Assembly (NCBI RefSeq): GCF_000826525.2
Contig: NZ_LN651330.1
Location: 497,857-561,856 of the forward strand
Source of the DNA: Mobilicoccus massiliensis
GTDB lineage: Bacteria; Actinomycetota; Actinomycetes; Actinomycetales; Dermatophilaceae
Length of the DNA stretch: 64,000 nucleotides
Direction: 5' to 3'
Position 1 is the first letter of the stretch. Each line of letters opens with the position of its first letter. The position numbers and the translations under genes were made by a program. The notes beneath the pieces were generated by a model. That model was not told where the DNA came from and searched no databases. It saw only the letters and a program-made list of their open reading frames with translations. Positions 1-15,115 of this stretch are shown piece after piece.

Positions 1-1092
1 GGATTCGGCGCGTCGTTTGAGTGCCCGGCCGGCGGCTGTGGCGCGCTGACGATCGGCCTCGGCTGCGGCGACGGCCTTCGCGACGCCGGCGACGTCGGTG
101 ACGTAGTCGGCGTCGGGCCCGGCGACCTCGCGGTTGAACACCACGTCATAGGCGATGGTGTGAGCGCCCGCACCCATCGCACGCAACAACGACGGGTTGG
201 TGCCACCCACCGAATGGCCGTGGAGGTACGTGAGGGAGTTGGCGTACAGCTGGTCGAGAAGCGCTTGATCCCACACCCCGCCGACGAGATGCACCTTGTC
301 GGACCTCGCGGCGAGCGCCTCCAACCTCGCGACGTAGGTATCGCTGTACGGCGAAGAGCCGACGACGACGAGCGGATCCTCGGCCCCGCTCTCGAGGTAG
401 CCCTCGATCATGAGGTGGACGTGGTTCTCGGGTTCGAACCGGGCGACGACGAGGTGATAGCGGCGGGGTTTCAGGTCGAACTCGGCCAGTTTGTCGGAGC
501 CCGGATCGAGAATCGGCGCCCCATAGGCGATGCCGTCGGTGATCGCACCGAACTCGTCGTGGTAATAGCACTGGATGCCGAAGGCGTCGGCGATGAGGGC
601 GTCGGCCCATCGCACCGACAGTGACTCCGCGATGCGGTAGTACCGCTGGCCGACAGGCCCCCACTTCGACCGGCGCCACTCCAGCCCGTCGACGTGCACC
701 GCGATCGGCGTGCCCTTGAGGCGCAGCAGCGGAAGGACGGGTGAATTGGCCGCGTTGCAGAGAACGTAGGCGTCGTAACGGCGCTGGAAAAGCAGGTGCA
801 GAGCCGTGAAGAAGGTGTGGCTCAGTGTTTCCAGCGAGGACTTCCTCACCGCTGGCAGATGCACCAGCTTCATGCCGAGGTGCTCCGCAGGCTCGGGAGT
901 CTGGCTCGAATTGCCGGTTCTGCAGTACACCGTCACGTCATGACCCGCTTCGACGAGGCGCCGACCCACCTCTTCCACCGCCGTTTCGAAGCCGCCGTAC
1001 CGCGCGGGGACTCCCCGCGTTCCCAGCAGTGCGACACGTAGGGACGACGTGGGCCGCTTGCGGTGTCGCCCCCGAATCAAGGTGAGCGGCAT
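1..1092 (-). CDS. DUF1972-type glycosyltransferase (partial, C-terminus outside window)
   Basis: Partial gene: 364 codons are visible and the reading frame stays open to the window edge. Residues about 19-45 carry the block GTRGVPARYGGFETAVEEVG, which is typical of the DUF1972 rhamnosyltransferase-like GT4 glycosyltransferases; a Rossmann-type second half follows (VVARFEPENH, VVVGSSPYS). The ATG start at 1092 is preceded by AGGAG at a normal distance, and the N-terminus is short and basic with no signal peptide, so a cytoplasmic or membrane-peripheral enzyme is expected. The gene lies just downstream of the dTDP-rhamnose genes on the same strand, so transfer of rhamnose or another sugar to a polyprenyl-linked glycan is a reasonable inference. 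The exact donor and acceptor cannot be read from sequence. Confidence 0.85.
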   Translation of the reverse strand, partial: MPLTLIRGRHRKRPTSSLRVALLGTRGVPARYGGFETAVEEVGRRLVEAGHDVTVYCRTGNSSQTPEPAEHLGMKLVHLPAVRKSSLETLSHTFFTALHLLFQRRYDAYVLCNAANSPVLPLLRLKGTPIAVHVDGLEWRRSKWGPVGQRYYRIAESLSVRWADALIADAFGIQCYYHDEFGAITDGIAYGAPILDPGSDKLAEFDLKPRRYHLVVARFEPENHVHLMIEGYLESGAEDPLVVVGSSPYSDTYVARLEALAARSDKVHLVGGVWDQALLDQLYANSLTYLHGHSVGGTNPSLLRAMGAGAHTIAYDVVFNREVAGPDADYVTDVAGVAKAVAAAEADRQRATAAGRALKRRAES

Positions 1093-1263: not shown

Positions 1264-2649
1264 TCAGCGCGCGAGGAACCGGGTGAGGCGTTCCCTTGCA
1301 TCCGCCGGAGCGAACCCCATCGCGGTGATCTTCGCGAGGTCCAACGTGCTGTGCCGTGGGCGCGGAGCCATGTGCTTGCCGGCGCCGTACTCCTCGGTGC
1401 TCACGCGGCCGACGTCGTCGCGGGAGCGTCCGCAGAGTTCGAACACGTCGGCGGCGATGTCGGCCCACGTCTTGGTGGGTCCCGAGTTCGTGAGGTCGTA
1501 CGTGCCGTAGGGGGCGCGGGTGCGCAGGAGGTGGACGATGCCCGCGGCGATGTCCTCGGTGAAGCTCAGACGGCCGTGCTGGTCGTCGACGACCGAGGGG
1601 GAGATGCCCTTCTCCGCCAGCATCCTCATGGTCGCGACGAAGTTCTTTCCGTCGCCGACGACCCAGCTCGTGCGCACGATGTAGTGCTGTTCCCACGTGG
1701 CGACCAGGGCGTCTCCGGCTGCCTTCGTCTGCCCGTAGACGCCGAGCGGGGAGAACGGTTCGTCCTCGTCGTGCACCTCACGAACACCGTCGAAGACATA
1801 GTCGGACGAGACGTGCACGAGCGGGATGCGGTGACGGCGGGCGAGTTCGACCAGATGAAGGACCCCCGTGACGTTCGTGGCCCACGCCTCGCGTCGGCCT
1901 TCCTCGGTCTCCGCGGCGTCGACGGCCGTGTAGGCCGCGGCGTTGACGACGGCATCGACATCGCGCCAGTCGATCGCGTCGAGGGTCTCCGGTTTCGCGA
2001 GGTCGGCCTCGGCGCGGGGGAGGGCGATCGCGTCGGGCATCGCTTGCGCGAGCGCCGTGCCGAGCTGACCACCGGCGCCGAGGATCAGGGTGCGCCGCGG
2101 CCGGGCCGGTCGCGACTCCGCCAGCACGGGGTGGTTCTGGTCGGCCTCGGACAGCGTGGCCCGCTCGAGGGGTATCGGCCATTCGATGCCGAGCGCCGGG
2201 TCGCCGAGCTGCACGAACGTGTACTGCTCCTTGGCCTCGGGGCTCCAGTGGTCGTTGACGAGGTAGGCGTAGGCGGTGTTCGGGGCGAGGGTCTGATAGG
2301 CGTTTCCGACGCCCCGGGGCACGAACACCGCCTTCTCCGGACCCATCTCGACCGTCACGACCCGGCCGCGGCTCTCGCCCTTACGGAGGTCGACCCACGC
2401 GCCGAAGATGCGCCCGGTCGCGACCGAGACGAACTTGTCCCACGGCTCGGCGTGGATGCCTCGCGTCACGCCGACCTCGTCGTTGAACGAGACGTTCTGT
2501 TGGACGGGCCCGAAGTCGGGCAGGCCGAGCGCGGTCATCTTCGCGCGCTGCCAGTTCTCCTTGAACCAGCCGCGGTTGTCGCCGTGAACGGGCAGGTCGA
2601 CGATCAGCAGGCCGGGGATCTCGGTGGCACGCACGGCGAGGTCGCTCAC
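1264..2649 (-). CDS. Fused dTDP-4-dehydrorhamnose 3,5-epimerase / dTDP-4-dehydrorhamnose reductase (RmlC-RmlD)
   Basis: This 461-residue protein carries out the last two steps of dTDP-L-rhamnose synthesis. Residues 1-185 form an RmlC-like cupin with the RG(I)H block at 63-66 holding the likely catalytic histidine. Residues 188-461 form an RmlD-type short-chain reductase with the nucleotide-binding GAGGQLG at 191-197, SSDYVFDG at 281-288 and the catalytic YGQTK (Tyr305, Lys309). I chose the GTG at 2649 because it follows GAGGAG and begins exactly at the cupin; upstream in-frame codons show no homology. The gene is co-directional with rmlB, 56 bp downstream of it, so the two are probably co-transcribed. 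Such fusions are known in some actinobacteria. Cytoplasmic. Confidence 0.93.
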   Translation of the reverse strand: MSDLAVRATEIPGLLIVDLPVHGDNRGWFKENWQRAKMTALGLPDFGPVQQNVSFNDEVGVTRGIHAEPWDKFVSVATGRIFGAWVDLRKGESRGRVVTVEMGPEKAVFVPRGVGNAYQTLAPNTAYAYLVNDHWSPEAKEQYTFVQLGDPALGIEWPIPLERATLSEADQNHPVLAESRPARPRRTLILGAGGQLGTALAQAMPDAIALPRAEADLAKPETLDAIDWRDVDAVVNAAAYTAVDAAETEEGRREAWATNVTGVLHLVELARRHRIPLVHVSSDYVFDGVREVHDEDEPFSPLGVYGQTKAAGDALVATWEQHYIVRTSWVVGDGKNFVATMRMLAEKGISPSVVDDQHGRLSFTEDIAAGIVHLLRTRAPYGTYDLTNSGPTKTWADIAADVFELCGRSRDDVGRVSTEEYGAGKHMAPRPRHSTLDLAKITAMGFAPADARERLTRFLAR

Positions 2650-2705: not shown

Positions 2706-3869
<1,164 letters not shown>

Positions 3870-3871
3870 TC

Positions 3872-4741
3872 ATGCGCGGCATCATCCTTGCCGGGGGGAC
3901 CGGCTCTCGTCTGCATCCGATCACTCAGGGCATCAGCAAACAGCTCGTGCCCGTCTACGACAAGCCGATGGTCTACTACCCGCTGACGACGCTCATCCTC
4001 TCGGGCATTCGCGAGATCCTCGTCATCACGACCCCGCACGAGGCAGAAGGTTTTCGCCGGTTGCTCGGCGACGGCTCGCAGTTCGGCATCGCGATCACCT
4101 ACGCGCAGCAGCCGTCGCCCGATGGTCTCGCGCAGGCCTTCACCATCGGAGCCGAGTTCATCGGCGACGAGGAGGTCTGCCTCGTCCTCGGCGACAACGT
4201 CTTCTACGGCCACGGTCTCGGCACCCAACTCGCGCGCATGCGCGGCCTCACCGGTGGCATGGTCTTCGCGTACTGGGTCGCCGACCCGAGCGCCTACGGC
4301 GTCGTCGAGTTCGACGGCGACGGCAAGGTGCTCGGCATCGAGGAGAAGCCCGCCAAACCCAAGTCGCACTACGCCGTTCCCGGGCTCTACTACTACGACA
4401 ACGACGTCGTCGAGATCGCACGCGGACTCACACCGTCGGCGCGCGGCGAATACGAGATCACCGACGTCAACAAGGCCTACCTCGACCGCGGTGACCTGCG
4501 CGTGGAGGTGCTGCCCCGCGGCACCGCGTGGCTCGATACCGGCACGTTCGACGCCCTCAACGACGCGAGCAACTTCGTGCGCACGATGCAGGCGAGGCAG
4601 GGCCTGCAGGTCGGCTGCCCCGAGGAATCTGCCTGGCGCATGGGCTTTCTCGACGACGACGACCTGCTCGCCCGCGCCGACGCGCTCGCCAAGTCGGGCT
4701 ACGGCGACTATCTGCGAGGGCTCGTCGAAGAAGGGCGCTGA
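3872..4741 (+). CDS. rmlA: Glucose-1-phosphate thymidylyltransferase
   Basis: This 289-residue nucleotidyltransferase makes dTDP-glucose from dTTP and glucose-1-phosphate, the entry step to dTDP-rhamnose. The N-terminus [18 protein letters not shown] contains the Gly-rich pyrophosphorylase signature, followed by [11 protein letters not shown] and [10 protein letters not shown], both typical of RmlA. I chose the ATG at 3872 because it begins exactly at the family start; no good ribosome-binding site precedes it, and a CAAGAT -10-like hexamer ends 6 bp before it, so a leaderless message is possible. It is divergent from rmlB and convergent with the asparagine-synthetase-like gene, with only 16 bp between stops. 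Confidence 0.95.
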
Positions 4742-4757
4742 GGATCTCACCCGCACC

Positions 4758-6656
4758 TCAGCCCTGACCCAACACCCCGAGCGACGCGGCGAAGGTGAGC
4801 AGCTCGGACTCGGCCTCGCTGCACGTGCCGGCCGCGCGGATCGCGTCGATGCGCGTGCGCAGGGCGGCGCGATCGACGAGGTCGTCCGGGCAGCCGAGGG
4901 CGAAGCCGGCGAGTCGATCGAATTGCTCCGGCTCGCGCACGACGAACGCGACGTCGACACGGAACGCGGCCTTCGCGAAGCCCAGACCCGCGAGGGCCGG
5001 CCGCTGCTGCGCGAGGCGGGGGAGGAGCGCCCGGATCGGGGTCTTGCCCTCGGAGATCCGCACGAACTCGCGTACGTCGCGCGACAGTGCCCAGTCGGCC
5101 ACGGGGGAGGCGAGATACGGCGGCCGGAGCTCGACACGCTCCTCCATCCACGCGTGATCGCCCTGCACCGTGAGCAGATACCCACCGAGCAGATGTGCGA
5201 GATCGACCTGGCGACGGGCCTCCAGCGGGTCCGCCGCCGGCGAATGTTCGTCGGGTCGGGTCGGTGCCGCTCCGAGCACGGCGTCGCGTAGCGGTGAGCG
5301 CAGCAGATCGTTGACGGGTCGCAGGATGTCGAGCCGCCGCGAGCCCGCGCTCGCCGAGAACGAGACGAGCCCGCGCCAGTACGACCGCGCCCACACCGCG
5401 CCACGACCTGCACCGAATTCCGGGACACCGAACTGCGCCCACGGCAGCCGCCGGGGATCGCCGAAGCGGCCCTCGCGGGCGGCGAGAATCCGGTAGGAGT
5501 CGTAGCCGGCGAACAGCTCGTCCGCGCCCTCACCCGAGAGAACGCCGCTGATCCCTTCGGCTCTGGCCCGCCGTGCGAGCGCCGTCATGCCGACCGGACC
5601 GAGCCGCACGAGCGGCATCCGTCGTGTGCGCACGTACGCCTCGAAGGTGTCGACGACCTCGCGGGGAACGAGCTGGTGTTGGACCAAGTCGATGCCGAGC
5701 GCCTCGGCGACCTCCCGCTGCCGCCCGGCGACGAGATCGTCCCCTTCGAGAGCCAGCGCGAGCCCCAGAGAAGCGCCTTCATCGCGGGCGATCGCGCCGA
5801 TGATCGTCGAGTCGATGCCTCCCGAGAGCAGGCACGCGACGCGACCGGTCGACCGCATCCGCGCCCGCACGGATTCCCGCACCGCGGCCTCGAGCTGGAC
5901 GATCTCGTCCTCCGACGGCGAGGCAGACGCCGAGGGCTTGAGGGCCGACACCGGTGTCGGCGCCCACCGCTCGTCGGAGACGACCCGCGGTGTCCCGGCG
6001 TCCGTCGCGACGGTGACGATGTGACCCGGGCGGACCTGGTGCACCCCGGCGTACGGCGTCAGCGAACCCGTCGGCGCCCAGTCGGCGAGAATCGAGACGA
6101 GGCCGTCGTGATCGAAGCGCGTCCCCGTGCCCGATCGCGGATCGCCGCGTAACGCCGGCACGGCCGGGAGGTTGGACCCCGCCGCGACGCCGGTCGCCGT
6201 CGGCGCCCAGTACAGCGGCGCGATGCCGAAGCGATCGCGCGCCAGCAGCACGGGGCCGCCTGCCGAACACCGTGCGACGAGCGCGAACTGGCCGTCGACG
6301 CGACGCAGGAACCCGGGGCCGTGCTCACACAGACCCGCGAGCAGTACCTCCACCTCCGAGGCGCCGGGGCGGCCGACCTCCCCCTGCAACTCGCCGAGGT
6401 TGAACACCACGCCATCGAACGCCGCGGCCGCCCCATCGGGTTCGACGTACGGCTGCCCCGGTGCACCCTCGTCCCCGTGTGCGAGGCGGGAACAGACGAG
6501 CAGCAGCGTGTCGTCGGCCCACCTCGTCACCCCGTTCGGACCTCGTCGAGTCAGGGCTCTCGCAGTTGTATCGATACAAGAGTTGTCGACGGCGTCGACT
6601 TGGGTCGCACTGCGGTCTGCGGGCGGCGCACCGACGAAGGCCGCCACCCCGCCCAC
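4758..6656 (-). CDS. Asparagine-synthetase-like protein with glutaminase cysteine missing
   Basis: This 632-residue protein has the two-domain layout of AsnB. The class II amidotransferase-like domain (about 1-210) retains RGPNG (39-43) and DGVVFN (81-86), but begins M-G-G-V-A-A-F-V-G where AsnB has M-C-G-I, so the N-terminal nucleophilic Cys is a Gly. The ATP-pyrophosphatase half is intact, with SGGIDS at 278-283 and SGEGADELF at 374-382. A beta-lactam-synthetase-like or ammonia-dependent acyl-adenylate reaction is therefore more likely than glutamine-dependent asparagine synthesis. The GTG start lies directly after the acyl-carrier-protein stop (1-bp gap), so translation is probably coupled and the substrate may be ACP-bound. 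Last gene of the five-gene module. Confidence 0.85.
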   Translation of the reverse strand: MGGVAAFVGAPPADRSATQVDAVDNSCIDTTARALTRRGPNGVTRWADDTLLLVCSRLAHGDEGAPGQPYVEPDGAAAAFDGVVFNLGELQGEVGRPGASEVEVLLAGLCEHGPGFLRRVDGQFALVARCSAGGPVLLARDRFGIAPLYWAPTATGVAAGSNLPAVPALRGDPRSGTGTRFDHDGLVSILADWAPTGSLTPYAGVHQVRPGHIVTVATDAGTPRVVSDERWAPTPVSALKPSASASPSEDEIVQLEAAVRESVRARMRSTGRVACLLSGGIDSTIIGAIARDEGASLGLALALEGDDLVAGRQREVAEALGIDLVQHQLVPREVVDTFEAYVRTRRMPLVRLGPVGMTALARRARAEGISGVLSGEGADELFAGYDSYRILAAREGRFGDPRRLPWAQFGVPEFGAGRGAVWARSYWRGLVSFSASAGSRRLDILRPVNDLLRSPLRDAVLGAAPTRPDEHSPAADPLEARRQVDLAHLLGGYLLTVQGDHAWMEERVELRPPYLASPVADWALSRDVREFVRISEGKTPIRALLPRLAQQRPALAGLGFAKAAFRVDVAFVVREPEQFDRLAGFALGCPDDLVDRAALRTRIDAIRAAGTCSEAESELLTFAASLGVLGQG

Positions 6657-6657
6657 G

Positions 6658-6906
6658 TCAGGCCCGCTCGTAGAGGGCGCGGATCGTGGCGAGGTTGCGG
6701 AAGTCGCCGGCCTCGGCCGACTCGAACGCCTCCTCGTCGTCGGTCGCGTCGATCAGCGTCTCGAGAATGGCGACGATCGACAGCGAGTCGAGCATTCCCT
6801 CCTTCGCGAGATCCTCGGATGCGCGGACCTTCTCCGCGTCGTGCACGTAGAAGACGTTGTCGAGCAGATCGCTCTCGACCTCGCTCCATGCAGGCTTGTC
6901 ACTCAT
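6658..6906 (-). CDS. Acyl carrier protein
   Basis: This 82-residue acidic protein has the phosphopantetheine attachment motif DSLS, with Ser41 the expected modified residue. It is divergent from the fatty-acid AcpP (which normally has DSLD or DSLE), so it is a dedicated carrier. The ATG at 6906 follows an AGGGGG ribosome-binding site. The gene sits between the NadE-like gene (101-bp gap) and the asparagine-synthetase-like gene (1-bp gap) in a module that also encodes an acyl-AMP ligase, which suggests that the ligase loads this carrier. A phosphopantetheinyl transferase (acpS, 40.8 kb) is in the same window. Confidence 0.85.
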   Translation of the reverse strand: MSDKPAWSEVESDLLDNVFYVHDAEKVRASEDLAKEGMLDSLSIVAILETLIDATDDEEAFESAEAGDFRNLATIRALYERA

Positions 6907-7007
6907 GTTCGTTTCCCCCTGTGGTGTGTGTCGGATGCGCGTGTGCGCGGTTGGCGAGATCGGCGCCCGCCGAGCGGTGAGGCTCGACGACGGCTCGGTG
7001 AAGGTGG

Positions 7008-8003
7008 TCAGTGCTGCCCGGCGACGGCCGGCTCGGAGCCGGGCCGCAGGCTGCGGGTGCGCTGGTAGCGCAGGGTGGCGAGCAGGCCGTTCGCGACCTG
7101 ACGCAGCGCCCGCTCGCTCCAGCCGGGGCAGTCGGCGAGGAACGGCGCGAGGTCGAGCTCGTCCAGCCCGGAGACGTCGGCGGCGAGCACGAGTCGACGC
7201 AGCACGTCGGCCGGAAGGGCGTAGTAGTAGTCCTCCTGGGTCTGCTTGAGCGCGTACGTGTCGGTCGTCGGCGGCCGGGCGATGATCTCCTGCGGCACCC
7301 CGAGCTCGCGGGCGAACTCGTAGACGACCGGCTTGGGCAGGTCACCGATCGCGCAGAGGTCGGCAGCATCGTCGCCGTACTTGACGACGAACCCCGTGTC
7401 GAGCTCGCTGCCGTTGCTCGCGCCGACGACGGCGAGGTTGTCCTTCTCGGCCTCGGCGTAGGCGAAGAGCATGCGGGTGCGCTGCTTGCGGTTCTGATAG
7501 GCGATGACCGCGCGCAGGTCGTCGACCGACGTCGACAGCGTCGTCGTCGGCTCGCCGTGCCGCGGCCCGATCGAGATGCGGTAGACGAGGGTGCCGAGGC
7601 GCTTGGCCAGCGACGGCACCGCGTTGACGGCATAGGCGTCCGTCGCCGGGTCGTAGTCGGGTGCGTACCGGCGGATGATCTCGGTGATCTGCGCGAGCGG
7701 CTGCTGCGCCTCGATGGCCGCACCGATGGGCCGCTCGACCAGGCGCACCCCCGCGTTGTCCACGGCCGCATCGACGAAACCGCGGGTCTCCTCGCCCGTG
7801 CTCGCCTCGTCGGGCAGGTAGAGCGCCGTGACGTTCTCGGCTCCGAGCGCCCTGGCGCACAGGTGCACGACCACGGTCGAATCGATGCCCCCCGAGAGCT
7901 GCACGAGCGCCCCCTTCTTGCCCAGCCCGTGCACGTGATCGGCGATCCAGGCGCAGCGCGCCTCGACCTGTTCTCTGACGTCGGTGATGTCCTGACCTGT
8001 CAT
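7008..8003 (-). CDS. NadE-like ammonia-dependent ATP pyrophosphatase
   Basis: This 331-residue protein belongs to the NAD synthetase family of the adenine nucleotide alpha-hydrolases. SGGIDS at 37-42 is the PP-loop, and later blocks (ASNGSELDTGFVVKYGDDAADL and PPTTDT) match the NadE ammonia-dependent type. No nitrilase/glutaminase domain is present. It is somewhat longer than the 275-residue E. coli NadE. It could supply NAD from nicotinate adenine dinucleotide, but its place inside the ligase/ACP/amidotransferase-like module suggests a repurposed amidation or adenylation. The ATG at 8003 overlaps the stop of the upstream ligase as ATGA, indicating translational coupling. Confidence 0.85.
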   Translation of the reverse strand: MTGQDITDVREQVEARCAWIADHVHGLGKKGALVQLSGGIDSTVVVHLCARALGAENVTALYLPDEASTGEETRGFVDAAVDNAGVRLVERPIGAAIEAQQPLAQITEIIRRYAPDYDPATDAYAVNAVPSLAKRLGTLVYRISIGPRHGEPTTTLSTSVDDLRAVIAYQNRKQRTRMLFAYAEAEKDNLAVVGASNGSELDTGFVVKYGDDAADLCAIGDLPKPVVYEFARELGVPQEIIARPPTTDTYALKQTQEDYYYALPADVLRRLVLAADVSGLDELDLAPFLADCPGWSERALRQVANGLLATLRYQRTRSLRPGSEPAVAGQH

Positions 8004-9205
8004 TTTCCGCTTTCCCCCACTTCGAGTCGGTCGACGATTCTGATGTCGCACAGGGCCGCCACCGAGCCGATCTCGGCGTGCAGCACCCTGCGCACGGCAC
8101 CCGAGCGCACCGCGTCGGCGCCCGGGACGATCTGGATGACGGGCACGGTGTCGCCGCCCACCCGCGCCGCCCGGGCATCGACCCGCACGACGAGCGGCGC
8201 GAACGTGCGCTCGATGAGCGCTCGCACGAGCTGGGCGTCGATCTTGGTGCCCGCGACGTTGAGCATGTGGTCGGCACGGCCGTGGTGGCGCAACGTGCCG
8301 TCGGGCAACAGCTCCCCGCGGTCCCGGGTGGCGACGAACTCCCCGCGCGGGCCGGGACGGACCTCGTCGTACGGCGCTGTGATGTATCGGTACATCGAGT
8401 GCGGAGTACGTGCATGGATCTCGCCCTCGACGATGCGCACGTCGACGCCCGGCATCGGTCGTCCGATCGTGCCCTCGGCGAAGTCCCGCATCGGCCCGCG
8501 CCACGTCGTCAGCCGCGGGCCGAGCTCGGCCTGCCCGTACATGTTCGTCAACTGCGCGCCCGGAAACCGGTCCGCGAGAGACTGCGCGGCCGAACCCGAG
8601 AGGCGTCCGCCCGCGACGATGACGTGCCGCACCGCCGAGGCGGCGAGTCCGGAGGAGAGCAGCAGCGGCGCGTGCTGCGGCAGTGCGTAGATCGCGAGCG
8701 GCACGTCACCGAGAGCGTCGAGTTCGGTCAGGCCCCACTGCGCGTCGACGAAGCGCACCGGCACACCCGAGACATGGTGGCTGTGCACGATGCTCAGGCC
8801 GTACGCGTAACCGGGCGGTGGCAGCGCGACGTACGCACAGTCGTGCCCGAGCTCGAGGCGTGCGGCGATGGCGCGAGCATGGGCGTTGACGATGCTGCGG
8901 CGGTAGACGACGCACTTGGGCCGACCGGTCGACCCGGAGGTGTGGAACGCGAGCAACGGCTCGTCGATGCGTCGATCTTCGGGTGCGCGCGGATCGCCGC
9001 CCTTCTCGCTCACCTCGAACCGCTGCGACGTCCCGCGCAGATCGGTGACGAGCAGCGGACGGCTGGAGAGACGGGCGACGTGCCCGACGACCACATCGAG
9101 GCCGTCGAAGGCCGTGACGGGCCGCACAAGTACCGAGTCACCGGCGTCGACGGCCGCCGCATAGGCGGTGAGCGCGTCCGTCGAAAGGCCGGCCACCTGG
9201 GTCAC
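8000..9205 (-). CDS. Short acyl-AMP ligase (ANL superfamily)
   Basis: This 401-residue AMP-binding protein has the P-loop TSGSTGRPK (89-97), an A5-like YGQAELGPR, and an A8-like block (LRHHGRADHMLNVAGTKID). It is shorter than usual acyl-CoA ligases because the region before the P-loop is only about 88 residues. It ends in E-S-G-K, so the final residue may be the catalytic A10 lysine. It probably activates an acyl or amino-acyl group for the nearby ACP. The GTG at 9205 overlaps the stop of the upstream hydrolase as GTGA; another GTG lies two codons earlier. It resembles the AMP-forming ligases found with exosortase/EPS loci, from memory of that family. Confidence 0.85.
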   Translation of the reverse strand: MTQVAGLSTDALTAYAAAVDAGDSVLVRPVTAFDGLDVVVGHVARLSSRPLLVTDLRGTSQRFEVSEKGGDPRAPEDRRIDEPLLAFHTSGSTGRPKCVVYRRSIVNAHARAIAARLELGHDCAYVALPPPGYAYGLSIVHSHHVSGVPVRFVDAQWGLTELDALGDVPLAIYALPQHAPLLLSSGLAASAVRHVIVAGGRLSGSAAQSLADRFPGAQLTNMYGQAELGPRLTTWRGPMRDFAEGTIGRPMPGVDVRIVEGEIHARTPHSMYRYITAPYDEVRPGPRGEFVATRDRGELLPDGTLRHHGRADHMLNVAGTKIDAQLVRALIERTFAPLVVRVDARAARVGGDTVPVIQIVPGADAVRSGAVRRVLHAEIGSVAALCDIRIVDRLEVGESGK

Positions 9206-10989
9206 GACCACGCCCCCGACGTGAGCCGGTCTACGAGTAATTGCACGGTGCGCTCGCGACCGGCTCGCGAGAAGAGGCTGTGATCGACGACGGGGTCGTG
9301 CTCGACGGTGATGTCGAGACCGCGCCTGCGCGCCGCCGCGACCGCCCGCCGACCGCCCTTGCCGGCGAAGATGTCGTACTCCTCGGTGCCGAAGAGCAGG
9401 TGCACCGACAATGGTGCGTGCAGCGGGCGCATGAGCATGCCGACGAGATCGAGCGGCACGTCGGGCCGCAGGAACGAACGCACTCGCGGGTGGTGGATGG
9501 CGAGGTGTTTGCTCGTCGTCGCGACAAGCCTGCGGGCCCGGAGTTCGAGCGATGCCCATTCCCTCTCGAGGTGCAAACGGTCGGCGAGCCCGCCGAACCC
9601 CTGCGCACGCGGCGGCACGGAGGAACTCGACGGCCCGCTCGGACCGGTCGGCGCCGCCGGTGCCGAATCGGCGTGGTAATACGCGTAGAACGCCTCGTCG
9701 AAGACGCCGGAGTCGGGGTTCCAGTGCACGGAGTTGACGGCGACGACCCCGTCGAGACGTCCCTGCGCGGCCGCGCGCAGCAGCGACCAGGCGCCCGCAC
9801 ACACGCCGACACCGACGACCGGCAGACCGAGACTGCGGACGTGGTCGGCGATCACGGCCACGTCGCTCACGTTCTCGTCGGTGTACGGCCGCGGCTCGTC
9901 GACCTCGGCCGGGCCGGTGTCGTCACCGAGACGAGAGCGGTCGGCTCGCACCGAATAGACGCCCAGGGGAGCGAGCCGGCGCGCCGCGTCCGCCCAGGCC
10001 CGGCCCGGCCCTGCCTTGATCTCCGAGCCCATCGCCGTGAACGTCGCACCGACGTGGGGTGTGACCCCGGGACTGGTCGTGACGACGACCGGCAGGCCAT
10101 CGATCGTCGTCAGGGTCTCGATGACGCCGGTCCCGTCGGGCAGCGTCAGCTCCGTCGTCGTCGGACCGTCCCACGCGGCCAGGTTGCGAGCCGGGCCCCG
10201 TTCGAGCCCGTCGACGATGCGACGGATCGAGTCGAGGGGGACATGCGCGAAGTAGGGAGCGCCGAGGGTCATCCGGAGCGCGGCACGACGGTCGGCCTCC
10301 ACGACGATCTCCGGACCACGCCTCGGGGCGCGCAGCCGTGAGAGCGAGGCGACCTGGGCGTCGCTCAACCAGAGCCCCTCGAGCTCGGTGCCGTCGTCGT
10401 CCACGGGGACGGGCACGGAGTCGCGGCGGATGATCGCGTGGTTGCGCACGAAGCTCCGACCGGAGACCGGCTCCCACAACACGCGTGCCCCCGGCCCGGT
10501 GAGCGGGAGGGAGTCGACGACGCAGGCTCCGACCCGCAGACCGACGACGTGAACGGGCAGGTCACGGCCGACATGGGCGCGGGCCTGCGCGACGACGGCG
10601 CCGAGGTCGGCGATCCAGGCCTCTGCGAGGTCGTCGTCGGGGCCCAGGTCCGCCGAGTCTCCCTCCCCGGAGAACGAGAAGGAGAACGCGACGAACCCGG
10701 CCGACGCGGCGGCGAGCGCGAGCGCGGCCGTCGTGCGCATTCCGACCACGGCCTCCCGACCGATGGGCGGCGCGACGACGAGGGCGCCGCGAGTCATGGC
10801 CCGCGGGTGATCGACGTGGACGGCCAACGGGCGTCCCTGCGAGGTGACCCATCCGAGCCGCCGCAGCCGTCGTCGATCGGCCTCGTTCGGCCGAGCTCCG
10901 GCCGTGAACGTGGGCGCCTGAGCGCTCTTGCCCGGCGCGATAGGCGCCCACCAGGCGCCTGCCGTCTTCTCTGCGTAGCCGAGAGACAT
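9202..10989 (-). CDS. Tandem alpha/beta-hydrolase-fold protein
   Basis: This 595-residue protein appears to contain two hydrolase-fold domains. The first (about 65-260) has APPIGREAVVGMR, an elbow GLRVG at 150-154 with Arg where the nucleophile should be, and LWEPVSGRSF. The second (about 285-595) has an elbow GVCAG at 395-399, so Cys397 replaces the usual Ser, and a late VVDHSLF with a likely catalytic His. These elbows match my memory of the paired hydrolase 2 and hydrolase 1 families of exosortase-associated loci, here fused. No signal peptide. The ATG at 10989 follows GAGGGGGAA. It is the first gene of the five-gene minus-strand module and probably carries its promoter. Confidence 0.75.
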   Translation of the reverse strand: MSLGYAEKTAGAWWAPIAPGKSAQAPTFTAGARPNEADRRRLRRLGWVTSQGRPLAVHVDHPRAMTRGALVVAPPIGREAVVGMRTTAALALAAASAGFVAFSFSFSGEGDSADLGPDDDLAEAWIADLGAVVAQARAHVGRDLPVHVVGLRVGACVVDSLPLTGPGARVLWEPVSGRSFVRNHAIIRRDSVPVPVDDDGTELEGLWLSDAQVASLSRLRAPRRGPEIVVEADRRAALRMTLGAPYFAHVPLDSIRRIVDGLERGPARNLAAWDGPTTTELTLPDGTGVIETLTTIDGLPVVVTTSPGVTPHVGATFTAMGSEIKAGPGRAWADAARRLAPLGVYSVRADRSRLGDDTGPAEVDEPRPYTDENVSDVAVIADHVRSLGLPVVGVGVCAGAWSLLRAAAQGRLDGVVAVNSVHWNPDSGVFDEAFYAYYHADSAPAAPTGPSGPSSSSVPPRAQGFGGLADRLHLEREWASLELRARRLVATTSKHLAIHHPRVRSFLRPDVPLDLVGMLMRPLHAPLSVHLLFGTEEYDIFAGKGGRRAVAAARRRGLDITVEHDPVVDHSLFSRAGRERTVQLLVDRLTSGAWS

Positions 10990-11380: not shown

Positions 11381-15115
<3,735 letters not shown>

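Follow-up and report, generated by a model that had tools for sequence, protein, structure and literature searches.

An acyl-activation, carrier and ATP-pyrophosphatase module beside surface-glycan genes in Dermatophilaceae is a new form of a PRK00876-type cassette

The five-gene module described here is a new form of a partly known PRK00876-type cassette, with one striking species-specific change. It is real, and a few related genera have inherited it as one unit. It is marked by its gene set and linkage, by the fold families and conserved catalytic residues of its products, by its place in a glycan locus and by a loss of glutaminase residues in its AsnB-like protein. The window (the whole 64,000-nucleotide stretch that was analysed) comes from a Dermatophilaceae-group genome of 3.84 Mb that lies close to Mobilicoccus pelagius. 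We tentatively read the module as a pathway for acyl-ACP amidation and transfer of the product to a surface glycan.

The open reading frames for a hydrolase-fold protein (HYD), a ligase (LIG), a NadE-like protein, a carrier protein (ACP) and an AsnB-like protein all lie on the minus strand, between 4758 and 10,989, as initially annotated. Three of the four junctions are tight when read directly from the sequence: HYD and LIG share a GTGA overlap, LIG and the NadE-like gene share an ATGA overlap, and ACP and the AsnB-like gene are spaced by 1 bp (TGA-C-GTG). The NadE-like and ACP genes are separated by a gap of ∼100 bp. Scans for promoters and terminators gave no signal above chance. Pairwise dN/dS against M. 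pelagius is 0.19–0.33 for all five genes, which are under purifying selection; values for the NadE-like gene against L052 came from a bad frame and were excluded.

Features of the module and its neighbours in the window
Feature	Coordinates	Strand	Basis or remark
HYD, didomain alpha/beta-hydrolase-fold protein	9202..10989	-	ORF, model, motif alignment; start uncertain
LIG, short adenylate-forming ligase, 401 aa	8000..9205	-	PF00501; alternative start 9211
NadE-like ATP pyrophosphatase, nearest PRK00876	7008..8003	-	PF02540, PRK00876 218 bits
Acyl/aminoacyl carrier protein (ACP), Ser41 putative phosphopantetheine site	6658..6906	-	Invariant D-S, structure model
AsnB-like protein, glutaminase-type and synthetase domains	4758..6656	-	PF00733, GATase_7, alignment
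RmlA, glucose-1-phosphate thymidylyltransferase	3818..4741	+	Neighbour, convergent with module
RmlB, dTDP-glucose 4,6-dehydratase	2706..3803	-	Neighbour
RmlC-RmlD fusion	1264..2649	-	Neighbour
Glycosyltransferase	1..1092	-	Start of glycan locus continuing upstream of window (L009, L010)

The close clade of NadE-like proteins occurs in 11 of 188 family genomes, and LIG occurs in exactly the same 11. If the two were independent, the chance of this match would be ∼5e-18 by genome or 3e-7 by genus, both uncorrected for kinship. ACP and the AsnB-like protein are present in every locus with LIG and the NadE-like protein, and the order LIG-NadE-ACP-AsnB is identical in all readable loci. Because this order is kept and dN/dS is low, the module is more than a chance grouping. 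HYD is an optional member, present in five of the eight loci with a readable flank (absent in G016, G072 and G085).

The same contig upstream of the window encodes an initiating sugar transferase, GT4 and GT2 proteins, a flippase, a Wzy-like protein, two beta-helix proteins, a C-methyltransferase, a PIG-L deacetylase and a nucleotidyltransferase. The module stands at the end of this Wzx/Wzy-type glycan locus. Together with gene order and a co-occurrence above chance, the upstream genes bear out the initial annotation, which had proposed a linked acyl-activation, ACP and ATP-pyrophosphatase module beside surface-glycan genes. An RmlA ortholog adjoins the module in L013, L015 and L050, and RmlC and RmlD are joined in a single protein in the window and likewise in related loci. 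The opposite flank carries a large plus-strand gene at 11,381, read as mfd. The initiating transferase is on the contig of the module in seven of eight genomes, a ninth being too fragmented to judge. Dermatophilus keeps LIG-NadE-ACP-AsnB and the initiating transferase, and has lost HYD and the other glycan genes of the locus, so the core can do without HYD and without this glycan. The Dermatophilus transferase beside the module lies at 13866-14516 in L016 and 14205-15659 in L049; the match covers only the C-terminal part in G016 and is nearly full length in G072.

LIG matches PF00501 (2e-23) and many ligase models, none near cut-off. Its signature residues are largely invariant in the alignment, including NMYGQAE, GR-D and the C-terminal Lys401; the P-loop-like motif is weaker in L051. 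ACP has no match in Pfam or NCBIfam, and a sequence search of the PDB returned chance matches only. Its D40-S41 pair is invariant in 21 sequences, and the model (pLDDT 93) shows the four helices of a carrier protein. The top structural matches are mostly carrier proteins, D-alanyl and glycyl carriers among them, none significant by E-value. With this predicted fold and the D-S motif, ACP is classed as an acyl carrier protein.

HYD has no Pfam match; compared with PDB structures, its model (pLDDT 72) resembles alpha/beta hydrolases. The first 39 residues are unstructured in the model, which makes the start uncertain. In the alignment, the first domain has G-L-R-V-G at the nucleophile elbow, with Arg in place of the nucleophile. 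The second domain contains G-V-C397-A-G and D569-H570, and the Cys and the D-H pair are invariant. A Cys nucleophile would fit acyl transfer better than hydrolysis.

The NadE-like protein matches PF02540 (7e-40), and its SGG-DS and GD motifs are invariant in the alignment. It could be taken for a second NAD synthetase in a cluster grouped by chance, as it scores 127 bits against TIGR00552, above the cut-off of 64. We find this scarcely credible. PRK00876 is the best of all NadE models (218 bits, cut-off 313), the stretch between its two motif blocks is ∼60 residues longer than in archaeal NadE, and its co-occurrence with LIG is perfect. A canonical NadE is also encoded elsewhere in the genome, so one outcome that the initial annotation had named as fatal to its own reading, an NadE-like protein that is the only NAD synthetase of the genome, is not what is found; nor is the other, co-occurrence at chance level. 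In a phage record from human faeces (MT835800.1, 11509-12090), one encoded stretch shares 29% identity with the NadE-like protein.

The most conspicuous feature of the module is in the AsnB-like protein, which matches PF00733 (1.6e-40) and GATase_7. Its N-terminus reads M-G-G in the window and M-C-G in ten orthologs; the start region is GTG GGC GGG, compared with GTG TGC GGG in M. pelagius. RGPN replaces RGPD, and DGV replaces the glutamine-binding N-G-E that the ten orthologs keep, both changes being visible also against E. coli AsnB (1ct9). The E. coli AsnB row of the ortholog alignment serves for orientation only. The substitutions are C2G, D41N, N81D and E83V, together with W61G. Thus the N-terminal Cys and the glutamine-binding Asn and Glu expected of a glutamine-dependent AsnB are all replaced (C2G, N81D, E83V).

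The losses are confined to one half of the protein. Of the sites at which all other members, close and distant, agree, the window sequence differs at 4 of the 28 in the glutaminase half (C2, D41, N81, E83) and at none of the 43 in the synthetase half (Fisher p = 0.02), where the domain looks intact and SGGIDST is present. Sister sequences show zero or one break each at 24–25 such glutaminase-half sites. The window protein alone has lost exactly its glutaminase residues, with no general relaxation. A pseudogene reading of the N-domain is rejected, since dN/dS against M. pelagius is 0.32 there and 0.27 in the synthetase half and there is no frameshift. Judged on the assembled sequence, sequencing error is unlikely, as it would have to account for five independent changes, all at conserved positions within a single domain.

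The search of the genome for AsnB-family places found no other than this gene, so asparagine synthesis probably follows a different route. A role as a second AsnB is likewise rejected, the glutaminase residues of this sole family member being gone. Because of their loss, glutamine-fed amidation is not to be assumed in this species. The initial annotation had missed this loss.

AsnB-family enzymes amidate uronic acids in some O-antigens, and the AsnB-like protein might similarly form a uronamide on the glycan, independently of the ACP genes. A literature search found no paper supporting this precedent. We regard such a role as very improbable: the glutaminase residues are lost here, the glycan locus has no UDP-sugar dehydrogenase (both genome copies are on other contigs), and the AsnB-like protein co-occurs strictly with the ACP genes.

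PRK00876 members are found in further Actinomycetota and in Alphaproteobacteria (Sinorhizobium, Mesorhizobium, Azospirillum), next to genes for an AsnB-like protein, an ACP and a ligase of full length. Adjacent AsnB-like, ACP, ANL ligase and NadE-like genes, by which a PRK00876 cassette is recognized, are present in the window. That the composition is shared is established, whereas common ancestry of the complete set is not. In the NadE tree and likewise in that of AsnB, each rooted, with some uncertainty, on one distant outgroup, the window clade stands apart on a long branch of its own. A search with the S. medicae ligase returned 18 places in the window's genome, LIG not among them, and LIG is neither orthologous nor close to the cassette ligase. 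Our literature search found no paper on this gene combination.

A GNAT of ∼360 aa is frequent with PRK00876 cassettes, from which HYD is absent, and is homologous across phyla. Members of this family (∼350-370 aa) have little or no Pfam score; examples are at 22046-23161 in L084 and 8970-10085 in L090, with more of the same cassette family at 7741-8805 in L095, 10045-11100 in L097 and 10840-11895 in L046. An HMM search with working positive controls found none in ten Dermatophilaceae stretches, and a hidden GNAT in the window clade is rejected. Near four distant cassettes within the same bacterial family there are AcpS-like phosphopantetheinyl transferases (L042, 6038-6487; L043, 17263-17655; L044, 900-1301; L047, 458-844), the L043 copy matching AcpS models, as if the carrier needed a dedicated enzyme to activate it.

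The S. meliloti 1021 pSymB record contains a cassette at 1450588-1453554. This is most likely the SMb20650/SMb20651 operon; the record carries no annotation, and the two are equated because replicon, pairing and description agree. The ligase SMb20650 is cotranscribed with the ACP SMb20651 and acylates holo-SMb20651 in E. coli (PMC7232532); the role of SMb20651 was left open in a further study (PMC5686131). Megablast with the DNA of the S. meliloti cassette also finds two plasmid records from Streptomyces.

The S. meliloti ligase is annotated as a long-chain acyl-CoA ligase, and its activity on the ACP raises the alternative that a longer chain is carried on ACP and that the product, as in the pathways for ornithine lipids or lipid A, is a lipid derivative or a glycan linked to lipid. 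The S. medicae ACP also matches the OlsHI ACP model, below cut-off (56 versus 130 bits). This fatty-acyl chemistry is improbable in our view, as SMb20650 does not stand in for FadD (PMC7232532), D-alanyl and glycyl carrier proteins are, weakly, among the structural neighbours of the window ACP, and plain fatty acylation offers no obvious task for a pair of ATP pyrophosphatases.

Under the amidation and glycan-transfer reading that we tentatively prefer, the five genes would form one pathway module of the surface-polysaccharide locus. LIG would adenylate a small carboxylic acid and load it onto Ser41 of holo-ACP. The two N-type ATP pyrophosphatases would activate carboxylates with ATP for attack by an amine or ammonia, leaving an amide (or amidine-type) group on the acyl unit. 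The Cys-His domain of HYD would then take the acyl group from ACP as a thioester and hand it on to the glycan repeat at an amine or hydroxyl, possibly on an amino sugar that the locus's own PIG-L deacetylase has exposed. The nature of the acid, the order of the steps and the acyl transfer to glycan are what we infer. In this species, the AsnB-like protein may use free ammonia or another amine, or mainly act as a partner of the NadE-like protein, because it no longer splits glutamine. A more specific version, in which the AsnB-like protein has switched from glutamine-derived ammonia to another amine to give a different end group and HYD transfers the amidated acyl unit to the glycan through its Cys nucleophile, is unlikely as a whole.

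The exact co-occurrence of LIG and the NadE-like protein, the invariant catalytic residues and purifying selection argue for acyl-ACP amidation with glycan transfer, and the Wzx/Wzy-type locus upstream, with its PIG-L deacetylase and initiating transferase, adds to this. The core pathway is further supported by its recurring composition in Alphaproteobacteria and other Actinomycetota and by the acylation of SMb20651 by SMb20650 (PMC7232532). The distance of LIG from the cassette ligases weakens the case. The glycan link itself is favoured by position in most loci and by the deacetylase, and is weakened by the stripped Dermatophilus locus and by rhizobial cassettes, which stand alone outside EPS operons.

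These last two observations, a four-gene core that survives without the rest of the glycan locus and stand-alone four-gene operons on rhizobial megaplasmids, suggest instead that the product of the module is a small amidated metabolite, secreted or intracellular, built on the carrier, with the glycan genes as mere neighbours. We consider this somewhat unlikely given the glycan context of most Dermatophilaceae loci and of L042-L047 and L087, and given the conserved block, which has no transporter or resistance gene.

The four-part core spans at least two phyla and is annotated merely as 'asparagine synthase', 'NAD(+) synthase', 'acyl carrier protein' and 'acyl-CoA ligase'. Such labels hide the pathway and probably cause false NAD and asparagine annotations. 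The natural loss in one species offers a clean comparison with the intact sister M. pelagius for the nucleophile of the AsnB-like synthetase.

The module resembles several known systems. Like the exosortase-A-associated set, it places a ligase, two hydrolase domains and an AsnB-like protein beside glycan genes, and the initial annotation had sought its kin among exosortase/EPS accessory families. The halves of HYD match exclusively the exosortase-A-associated models TIGR03101 and TIGR03100, weakly, as they do in five of five orthologs. However, all four TIGRFAM models score far below cut-off, and membership of these families is rejected: LIG reaches 49 bits against TIGR03098 (cut-off 592), HYD 30 against TIGR03100 (168) and 27 against TIGR03101 (203), and the AsnB-like protein 100 against TIGR03108 (817). 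The module also differs in its fused hydrolases and added NadE-like protein. No exosortase scores above cut-off in the genome (best PF09721 match 15.5 bits, cut-off 25.7), and the exosortase link is abandoned. The closest relatives are the PRK00876 cassettes, which that annotation had missed.

DltA/DltC-type pairs share with LIG and ACP a stand-alone ligase and a small carrier with a D-S motif, but LIG scores 26 bits against the DltA cut-off of 560, and its FAYGLS stretch seems to lack the Asp that binds an alpha-amino group. Beta-lactam synthetase, a glutaminase-less AsnB relative, likewise combines the AsnB fold with a replaced N-terminal Cys. In the module, by contrast, the loss is limited to this species, all orthologs keeping Cys2, and ring closure is unsupported. 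The rhizobial cassette differs in gene order, in its ligase of ∼515 aa, in carrying a GNAT instead of HYD and in an intact AsnB Cys2. It has the same four protein kinds in adjacent genes, a ligase/carrier pair and a NadE-like protein that is also nearest PRK00876 and ∼29-32% identical to that of the window.
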